Below are positions 20,112-21,552 of a DNA stretch of 64,000 nt, piece after piece. The stretch comes from Bifidobacterium ruminantium DSM 6489 (GTDB lineage Bacteria > Actinomycetota > Actinomycetes > Actinomycetales > Bifidobacteriaceae), in contig NZ_JDTK01000001.1 of NCBI RefSeq assembly GCF_000770925.1, positions 1-64,000 on the forward strand, written 5' to 3'. Both the position numbers and the translations under genes were made by a program. Positions within the stretch are counted from its first letter, which is position 1, and every line of letters begins with the position of its first letter. The notes beneath the pieces are model-generated. The model had not been told where the DNA came from and did not search any database. It saw nothing but the letters and a program-made list of their open reading frames with translations.

Positions 20112-20145
20112 AGGAAGGGGTCCGTATGGGCCCCTTCCTGCTTTA
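20112..20145 (+). terminator. Intrinsic terminator after rplY
   Basis: Stem AGGAAGGGG / CCCCTTCCT, loop TCCGTATGGG, then GCTTTA. It separates rplY from the ilvE leader. Confidence 0.75.
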
Positions 20146-20174
20146 TGAGGATCGTTATCTCATATCGCGAACGC

Positions 20175-20270
20175 CGGTTATCGAAAGCGTTTATGGTGTG
20201 AGAGAGTACATACCAGAACCCGGCGCCACAAGCGCCGGAGACCAATAACCGCTGGCCGCCTTTGGGTGGC
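20175..20270 (+). promoter_or_regulatory. Structured leader with three-way junction before ilvE
   Basis: Helix P1 pairs CGGTTAT (20175-20181) with ATAACCG (20245-20251). It encloses two hairpins: TGGTGTG / CATACCA (20194-20200, 20209-20215) and CCGGCGC-CACAA-GCGCCGG (20220-20238). A fourth hairpin, GCCGCC / GGTGGC (20255-20270), ends 24 bp before the ilvE start, where it could influence translation. The arrangement is riboswitch-like. No known class was recognised. Confidence 0.45.
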
Positions 20271-20294
20271 TGATGCAACTAGAAGAAGTAAAGA

Positions 20295-21422
20295 ATGACT
20301 GAACAGAATCATCACGATCCAGCGGAGCTTGACAAGCTCGCCGAGAAGTTCACCGTGCTCCCGAACGACAATCCGGCATCCGACGCCAAGCGCGCCGAAC
20401 TCATCGACAAGCCGGCCTTCGGTCAGGTCTTCTCCGACAATATGGCCCACATGACCTGGACCAAGGGTGAAGGCTGGTCCGACCGTCGCATCGAGCCGTA
20501 CGCGCCGCTGAAGATGGATCCGGGCGCATCTGTTCTGCATTACGCCCAGGAATGCTTCGAGGGTCTGAAAGCCTACCGTCACGCCGACGGCTCTACCTGG
20601 CTGTTCCGCCCGGACGCGAACGCCGAGCGTTTCCAGAACTCCGCCAAGCGCCTGTACCTGCCGGAACTGCCGATCGACGACTTCATCGGCTCCGTCGCGG
20701 CACTGGTCAAGCGTGATGTGAACTGGGTTCCGTCCCGTCGCGAATACACGCTGTACATGCGTCCGTTCATGTTCGCCTCCGAACCGTTCCTGGGCGTGCG
20801 TGCGCCGCAGGAAGTGGACTATTGCGTGATCGCCTCCCCGTCCGGCCCGTACTTCCCGGGCGGCGTGAAGCCGGTCAACATCTGGGTCGAGGACAAGTGG
20901 TTCCGCACTGGCCCTGGCGGCACTGGCTTCGCCAAGTGCGGCGGCAACTACGCAGCCTCTCTGCTCGGTGAATACACCGGCATCGACCATGGCTGCCAGC
21001 AGGTCTGCTTCGTCGACGCCGCCACCAAGACCTACCTGGAGGAGCTTGGCGGCATGAACATGATGGTCGTGCACAAGGACGGCCACGTTGAGACCCCGTC
21101 CCTGACCGGCAACATCCTGCCGGGAGTGACCCGTCGCTCCCTGATCCAGCTCATTCAGGACAACGGCCACGATGTGGTCGAGACCATGATCGCCCTGGAT
21201 CAGCTGCTCGAAGACATCAAGTCCGGCGAGGTCACTGAGGTGTTCGCCTGCGGTACCGCCGCCATCATCACCCCGATCGGCCGCTTCAAGTCCGAGAAGT
21301 TCGATGTGACCGTCGCCGACGGCGGCTCCGGTGAGTTCACCATGGCGCTGCGCAACCAGCTGCTCGGCATTCAGCTTGGCGAGATCGAAGATCCGCACAA
21401 CTGGATGTGGAAGGTCTGCTGA
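20295..21422 (+). CDS. ilvE: Branched-chain amino acid aminotransferase
   Basis: PLP-dependent fold-type IV transaminase interconverting Leu/Ile/Val and their 2-oxo acids with glutamate. The 375-aa length matches the actinobacterial/eukaryotic-type IlvE. Landmarks: YAQECFEGLKAYR, RFQNSAKRL, the PLP-lysine region GTGFAKCGGNYAASL, and EVFACGTAAIITPIG. ATG 20295 follows the purine-rich AGAAGAAGTAAAG. It is monocistronic: a structured leader upstream, a long inverted repeat downstream. Confidence 0.95.
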   Translation: MTEQNHHDPAELDKLAEKFTVLPNDNPASDAKRAELIDKPAFGQVFSDNMAHMTWTKGEGWSDRRIEPYAPLKMDPGASVLHYAQECFEGLKAYRHADGSTWLFRPDANAERFQNSAKRLYLPELPIDDFIGSVAALVKRDVNWVPSRREYTLYMRPFMFASEPFLGVRAPQEVDYCVIASPSGPYFPGGVKPVNIWVEDKWFRTGPGGTGFAKCGGNYAASLLGEYTGIDHGCQQVCFVDAATKTYLEELGGMNMMVVHKDGHVETPSLTGNILPGVTRRSLIQLIQDNGHDVVETMIALDQLLEDIKSGEVTEVFACGTAAIITPIGRFKSEKFDVTVADGGSGEFTMALRNQLLGIQLGEIEDPHNWMWKVC

Positions 21423-21467: not shown

Positions 21468-21552
21468 CGAAGGGCGGGATATGAGTTATGCAATATGTTT
21501 CGGCCTCTCAGGATGAGTTCGTATGACTGCATGACTCGTATCCCGCCCTTCG
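21468..21552 (+). terminator. Long inverted repeat after ilvE
   Basis: Arms of 25 nt (21468-21492 and 21528-21552) that pair fully if two G-U wobbles are allowed, around a 35-nt loop; the outer arm starts CGAAGGGCGGGAT. ATTTTCC follows. It can end ilvE transcription, but the stem is longer than needed. Confidence 0.65.

Follow-up and report, generated by a model that had tools for sequence, protein, structure and literature searches.

A likely NdgR-type promoter and a conserved leader hairpin upstream of ilvE in Bifidobacterium ruminantium

The leader of ilvE, the branched-chain amino acid aminotransferase gene of Bifidobacterium ruminantium DSM 6489, raises the question of whether the gene is controlled by a structured RNA or from a promoter. 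The window, which is the whole stretch of 64,000 nucleotides analyzed here (positions 1 to 64,000 of contig NZ_JDTK01000001.1), carries the ATG of ilvE at 20295, as read directly. A sequence-only reading had drawn a 77-nt three-way junction and a fourth hairpin in the leader, and had proposed a separate transcript start after rplY, metabolite control of ilvE, and an RNA outside the familiar riboswitch classes. It is likely, with a probability of about 0.7, that the leader comprises an NdgR-type-regulated ilvE promoter followed by a short 5′ UTR with a conserved hairpin (Table 1). We infer binding, activation, the start site, and the function of the hairpin; the conservation, the spacing, the covariation, the fit to the published consensus, and the co-occurrence with IclR are directly supported.

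Table 1. Features of the ilvE leader and of the candidate regulator locus. Positions are those of the window unless a genome and contig are given.
Feature	Position	Strand	Basis
Likely NdgR/LtbR-type operator, TCTCATATCGCGAAC; genus form TTTCAnnATGTGAAC	20158-20172	+	Matches the published KTYCRSMWYSYGRRM at 13/15; unchanged across the window and 9 relatives
Three-way junction of the sequence-only reading with P1; not a conserved RNA	20175-20251	+	P1 whole in 2/10 sequences, hairpin 1 whole in 2/10
Extended -10-like element, TGTGA + GAGAGT (hexamer 20202-20207)	20197-20207	+	Exactly 29 bp after the box
Predicted transcription start	20214-20215	+	Spacing to the hexamer, combined with the pyrimidine-purine rule (PMC4782308)
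Hairpin A, 7-bp stem, loop CACAA (20227-20231), within the conserved 9-mer GCCACAAGC (20225-20233)	20220-20238	+	Covariation, 10/10 stem conservation, consensus fold
Hairpin B, upstream of the ribosome-binding region; support weak	20254-20271	+	Drawable; some hairpin in most leaders
Probable ribosome-binding stretch, AGAAGAAGT	20281-20289	+	By eye, most leaders conserve an AAGAAGT-like stretch before the start
ilvE, branched-chain amino acid aminotransferase	20295-21422	+	NCBIfam NF009897 and TIGR01123 above cut-off; Pfam Aminotran_4
IclR-family regulator gene	G000:C5:75698-76519	-	IclR family certain
leuC	G000:C5:76835-78238	+	Named above cut-off
leuD	G000:C5:78297-78977	+	Named above cut-off

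The window's genome is 2.23 Mb in 67 contigs, and its nearest named relatives are Bifidobacterium. In the genus-wide survey, ilvE is present in 110 of 112 genomes, and it was found in 130 of 151 genomes of the family. The named loci fetched for the leader comparison were the best 80 of 287. Twenty leaders were opened family-wide, 14 of which were new to the leader set. A terminator-like stem with a weak T run lies 3′ of rplY at 20113-20138; it was not listed in the mechanical scan, which also listed no plus-strand terminator between 20139 and 20295. Behind ilvE, an inverted repeat (CGAAGGGCGGGATA / TATCCCGCCCTTCG, about 21468-21480 and 21540-21552) is visible by eye and is possibly a terminator-like or repeat element.

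All helices of the proposed junction can be drawn in the window by direct reading. They are P1 (CGGTTAT/ATAACCG, 20175-20181 with 20245-20251, spanning 77 nt), hairpin 1 (TGGTGTG/CATACCA, 20194-20200 with 20209-20215), and hairpin 2 (CCGGCGC/GCGCCGG, 20220-20226 with 20232-20238). For the 88-nt stretch, the folding energy is -32.3 kcal/mol (z -3.58), and none of 200 dinucleotide shuffles is as good. For the 130-nt stretch, z is -2.68 and 3 of 200 shuffles are as good. The fold of this one leader beats chance, yet single-sequence folding is weak evidence.

The helices fare differently in an alignment of the window with 9 relatives. Both P1 and hairpin 1 keep 7/7 pairs only in the window and L002; in the other eight sequences, P1 keeps 4-5/7 pairs and hairpin 1 keeps 3/7. 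L002 is nearly identical to the window in the leader and adds little, and several other rows are near-copies of each other. Hairpin 2, called hairpin A below, keeps 7/7 pairs in all 10 sequences. The RNAalifold consensus of 20 leaders, a method that does not reach pseudoknots, yields hairpin A only. Eight of 9 close relatives thus break both P1 and hairpin 1, an outcome that the sequence-only reading had itself named as refuting its proposal, and the three-way junction is no conserved RNA. Hairpin 1 overlaps the -10-like element, and P1 has its 5′ strand in the spacer between the box and the hexamer. The mRNA thus probably lacks that strand and most of hairpin 1. Rfam curated covariance models at the gathering score gave no match in the window, and an Rfam search of five other ilvE loci gave none. 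A permissive Rfam search around the leader gave none in the leader and two chance-level snoRNA matches over the end of rplY.

The fourth hairpin, hairpin B, can also be drawn. It keeps 7/7 pairs in 8 and 5/7 pairs in 2 of the 10 aligned sequences, a count that includes the unrealistic pair 20261-20264 closing a 2-nt loop. A hairpin of at least 4 pairs is predicted in this region in 86 of 89 leaders. Nevertheless, the folding energy of the region is only modestly better than that of shuffled sequences (mean z -0.95), and the consensus fold does not include the hairpin.

The box upstream of the drawn junction is a 15-bp imperfect palindrome, whose match to the NdgR/LtbR consensus reaches 15/15 elsewhere in the genus. 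When the four Gardnerella leaders are left out of the 102 distinct leaders, 97 of 98 carry a box of at least 13/15 (29 at 13, 45 at 14, and 23 at 15). In L077, L084, L096, and L102, the top-scoring 15-mer differs from the dyad preferred by eye. Shuffled leaders (1000) reach 13 in 16.2%, 14 in 1.4%, and 15 in 0.1%. The window's box is weak evidence alone, since 16% of shuffled leaders equal it, and the 4-kb stretch around the regulator gene contains 13 boxes of at least 13/15. As such boxes are common, the weight of the window's box rests on its position and its identity in close relatives, and their number around the regulator gene slightly reduces the confidence in an NdgR-type promoter. The sequence TTTCANNATGTGAAC has 65 sites, spread over 64 of 112 genomes, and most by far are at ilvE. 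An operator with a single target was rejected, as MHS-like transporters also carry the box.

The distance between the box and the hexamer is 29 bp in 69 of 98 leaders and 30 bp in 17 (86 of 98 together); the other 12 gave no match to the search expression. The genus pattern is a 15-bp dyad, 29-30 bp, and then TGTGn followed by a hexamer of the nAnAGT type. Elsewhere in the family, genera outside Bifidobacterium have hexamers that are, by eye, nearer to the standard -10 (TAAGAT, TATGAT, and TACTAT). The general sigma-70 scan listed no plus-strand promoter at the leader because the hexamer is far from the consensus and no -35 is recognizable. B. breve promoters show the TATAAT/TTGACA consensus, and their -10 is better conserved than their -35 (PMC5746004). 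B. pseudolongum, one of four species in PMC4782308, is reported to start transcripts at a pyrimidine-purine step. A word search for ‘ilvE’ in the main text of the B. breve promoter paper gave no hit, and a literature search found no ilvE start sites in Bifidobacterium.

If the hexamer is taken to start at -12, the box lies at about -56 to -42, with its center near -49. This position and the missing -35 suit an activator, and thus activation appears likelier than repression. In some species, for example L037 and L067, the spacer (the equivalent of 20173-20207) contains by eye an inverted repeat ACTTTCTCACA...TGTGAGAAAGT, with the extended -10-like element as the right arm; no such repeat is visible in the window. 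The separate promoter after rplY that had been proposed is supported by the conserved box and the -10-like element.

In the window's genome, an IclR-family gene is divergent from leuC and leuD, which is the arrangement of ndgR. No NCBIfam model names the protein above its cut-off. By its IclR family and the leuCD synteny, the regulator may be orthologous to NdgR. A 13/15 box lies just before the IclR gene start, which means little given the 13 such boxes in the same 4 kb. A 14/15 NdgR-like box (GTTCCCATTGTGGGA, minus strand, G000:C5:76828-76842) overlaps the start of the called leuC frame. IclR domains are found in 99 of 112 genus genomes. In a sample of 69 of the 110 genomes with ilvE, the box scores at least 13 in 55 of 56 IclR-positive versus 2 of 13 IclR-negative genomes, and at least 14 in 35 of 56 versus 1 of 13; the IclR-negative genomes are related to each other, and these counts are not independent events. 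The IclR-negative genomes with the box are G096, which is 82% complete, and G076, which has a different 15-mer at -189.

The ChIP-seq analysis of S. coelicolor NdgR by Kim and co-workers gave a 15-bp motif with sites such as GTCCATCCTGCGGAC and a regulon that includes leuB, ilvE, ndgR, and leuC (PMC4340878), and a comparative study gave the NdgR/LtbR consensus KTYCRSMWYSYGRRM (PMC8222616). Published work describes NdgR as activating ilvE and leuCD. Titles in reference lists name LtbR as a repressor, and thus the sign of regulation may differ. The 15-bp imperfect palindrome, the regulator gene divergent from leuCD, and putative branched-chain amino acid targets including ilvE are shared with NdgR of Streptomyces and LtbR of Corynebacterium (PMC4340878, PMC8222616, and PMC10331944). 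In contrast to S. coelicolor, where ilvE is listed with leuB, ilvE follows rplY here. The bifidobacterial box also differs from the NdgR/LtbR systems in its fixed distance of 29-30 bp to a -10-like hexamer and in predicted targets that include MHS-like transporters.

Three other explanations compete with the NdgR-type promoter. A dyad of such size occurs in more than one family, and the box could be read by another regulator, such as an Lrp/AsnC or LysR protein. Lrp proteins often respond to leucine. Such a reader is unlikely, because the box follows the presence of IclR across genomes and matches the published NdgR/LtbR consensus. The search for rival domains covered AsnC/Lrp, and these domains were found in 73 of 112 genomes. 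They were not found in several box-carrying genomes, such as G006, G015, G021, G024, G030, and G032, and Lrp/AsnC was rejected as the regulator by this distribution. It is still less likely that transcription starts further upstream or reads through from rplY, giving an mRNA that includes the whole of 20175-20251. The weak T run of the rplY stem, uncalled by the scan, and the absence of a listed plus-strand promoter would agree with this. However, the 29-30 bp distance is held through variable sequence, as promoters do, and the terminator-like stem abuts the box in many species by eye.

It is highly improbable that the three-way junction acts as a riboswitch or aptamer that senses a branched-chain amino acid or keto acid. 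The appeal of this idea is that the leader in the window folds better than its shuffles and that ilvE is a plausible target. Against it stand the broken P1 and hairpin 1 in the close relatives, the consensus fold with hairpin A alone, the leader without an Rfam match, and the 5′ half, which consists of the conserved box and the -10-like element. From the proposal of metabolite control, the link to branched-chain amino acids survives, but the route is likely a transcription-factor box.

Hairpin A starts about 5 nt after the predicted transcription start. Its covariation was evaluated on leaders selected by the loop. Among 102 distinct leaders, the loop pattern was present at the expected place in 90 and missing there in 12 (L107-L110 from Gardnerella, L073, L099-L104, and L128). 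L096 was dropped as a wrong match, leaving 89 rows with 85 distinct strings; two near-duplicates were omitted, and 83 ungapped leaders were analyzed. The row-selection pattern [CT]C[AG]N[AG]AG imposes C16, A20, and G21 and limits three other positions.

In these 83 leaders, 82.3% of stem cells are paired versus 69.4 in shuffles, double-changed stem cells number 72 versus 29.8, and the stem covariation is 0.367 versus 0.172; none of 500 shuffles is as high in any of the three. Further pair types number 21 versus 17.7 (9 of 500 shuffles). The pairs changed on both sides show no excess (5/7 versus 4.8, reached by 424 of 500 shuffles). When the 3′ partners are slid by 1-3 columns, the paired cells fall to 21-44%. 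The three outermost pairs are unpaired in 37, 29, and 26 of the 83 rows. Next to the loop, G14 is kept in 83 of 83 rows and C22 in 82 of 83, and neither is imposed by the choice of rows. Minimum-energy folds contain the hairpin in 87 of 89 leaders.

Compensatory changes preserve the stem, and GCCANAAGC is conserved as sequence; the alignments thus indicate that hairpin A is a real conserved RNA element, one with no Rfam family. The covarying arms with G-U pairs and the asymmetric loop point to an RNA rather than a DNA site. The sequence-only reading had named compensatory changes in P1 and the hairpins as support for a conserved RNA; they are present in the hairpin at 20220-20238, while P1 and hairpin 1 are broken in relatives. 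Likewise, the structured element outside Rfam is this one hairpin and not the whole junction.

Outside the training set, the covariance model of hairpin A matches 7 of 14 family loci, all in the leader, and the other 7 have no match; these matches are weak (E 0.0012 to 0.22, with a threshold of E up to 1). The hairpin as a widespread motif was rejected, as 30 of 31 among the matches listed (E <0.02, 61 genomes) are at ilvE. Sixteen other places with hairpin matches were opened, and no loose operator pattern was found within 80 nt upstream. In one genome, a strong hairpin with a CACAA loop lies just before a lipoprotein-like gene (L211; G066:C84, about 533-568), again with no loose operator pattern upstream. 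The combined pattern of box and hairpin gave many coding matches among the matches listed.

The box is also found before transporter genes. In 112 genomes, KTYCACNATGTGARC has 71 sites versus 2 for the reversed control. Of the 71 sites, 20 were opened, and 14 of these 20 precede a second, paralogous MHS-like transporter (MHS2), where the label ‘MHS-like’ reflects TIGR00883 scores below its cut-off. TANNNT lies at 29-30 bp from the box in 14 of 14 MHS2 loci. The MHS2 leaders (L277-L287, L289, L291, and L296) contain a short frame ending in ARII after AAAGGAGG in 14 of 14 loci, a candidate isoleucine leader-peptide attenuator.

The first MHS-like transporter (MHS1) was found via the box in three genomes. 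A box of at least 12 is present in 27 of 30 MHS1 loci fetched, and CAYACT lies at 29-30 bp in 18 of these 27. The MHS1 leaders (L247-L276) have a strong conserved hairpin of the CAGCGGU...ACCGCUG type, with GCCANAAGC directly after it. GCCANAAG(C/T) is found in all 27 MHS1 leaders with the GCACAGCG hairpin, and it is absent or out of range in L254, L270, and L271. The covariance model of hairpin A does not find this MHS-like leader motif above noise, and an Rfam search of 16 MHS-like loci gave no match inside the leader. A pseudoknot between the loop and the downstream sequence is plausible by eye, but it was rejected, because most of the 27 sequences gave no significant result (p 0.03 to 0.88).

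One opened KTYCACNATGTGARC site (L288) precedes a gene of the sodium/bile-acid symporter family. Before genes of this family, the boxes GTTCATTATGTGAAC and GTTCACAATGTGAGC are seen in the window's genome (G000:C56:13010-13024, L164) and at L288, and the box in the window's genome has one mismatch. Sites before a LivJ-like gene (below the model's cut-off) and BrnQ (L290 and L292) are single-genome matches, which may be chance matches. No convincing target gene was found at L293-L295.

Hairpin A probably either serves a protein or an RNA as a recognition site or protects the mRNA from 5′-end decay. Some stem-loops at the 5′ end of mRNAs, for example in ompA, slow decay. Recognition of the loop and simple 5′ protection rank as close rivals. 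Hairpin A resembles the ompA type in standing within a few bases of the predicted start. That position and the minimum-energy fold in nearly all leaders favor a generic 5′-terminal stem-loop that slows mRNA decay with its loop unread. This is a possible but somewhat doubtful explanation, because a plain stabilizer need not keep its loop, G14 and C22 are nearly invariant, and 27 of the 30 MHS-like transporter loci examined also contain GCCANAAG. Unlike plain 5′ stabilizers, hairpin A has GCCANAAGC kept across the genus and into other genera. More tentatively, GCCANAAGC, in the covarying stem of ilvE and behind the hairpin of MHS-like leaders, might be a new RNA regulatory motif of Bifidobacteriaceae, a second, post-transcriptional layer of an NdgR-driven branched-chain amino acid regulon, with an RNA-binding protein or a small RNA as its reader.

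Leaders of actinobacterial amino acid genes include ilvB leader peptides, the LEU element, and T-boxes (PMC1262725). Like these, the ilvE leader belongs to an amino acid gene. Unlike these, it has a 20-leader consensus fold of only one hairpin, no conserved upstream AUG frame in the leaders scanned, and no Rfam match. A leader-peptide attenuator at ilvE would need a short upstream frame with Ile/Leu/Val codons and a terminator. An AUG-only scan of 59 of the 89 leaders found no conserved frame, and the mechanical scan listed no plus-strand terminator in the leader.

In the proposed mechanism, an IclR-family regulator of the NdgR/LtbR type, encoded elsewhere and divergent from leuCD, would bind the box. 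The bound regulator would help RNA polymerase use an extended -10 promoter without a recognizable -35. Transcription would start near 20214-20215, so that only a few unpaired bases precede hairpin A at the 5′ end of the mRNA; hairpin A may act in the 5′ UTR as a recognition or stability element.

Among the papers listed in searches of a full-text literature that lacks most subscription papers, none was seen to describe an NdgR, IclR, or branched-chain regulon in Bifidobacterium, or a riboswitch or leader of the aminotransferase gene in this genus. PMC10704036 mentions Bifidobacterium and NdgR without linking them.

A spurious aptamer is replaced by a testable promoter, which points to a likely NdgR-type regulon in bifidobacteria. 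One small hairpin with a conserved loop is isolated, and another leader of the putative regulon also carries its 9-base motif. The proposed regulon predicts which transporters would respond to branched-chain amino acids in these gut bacteria.
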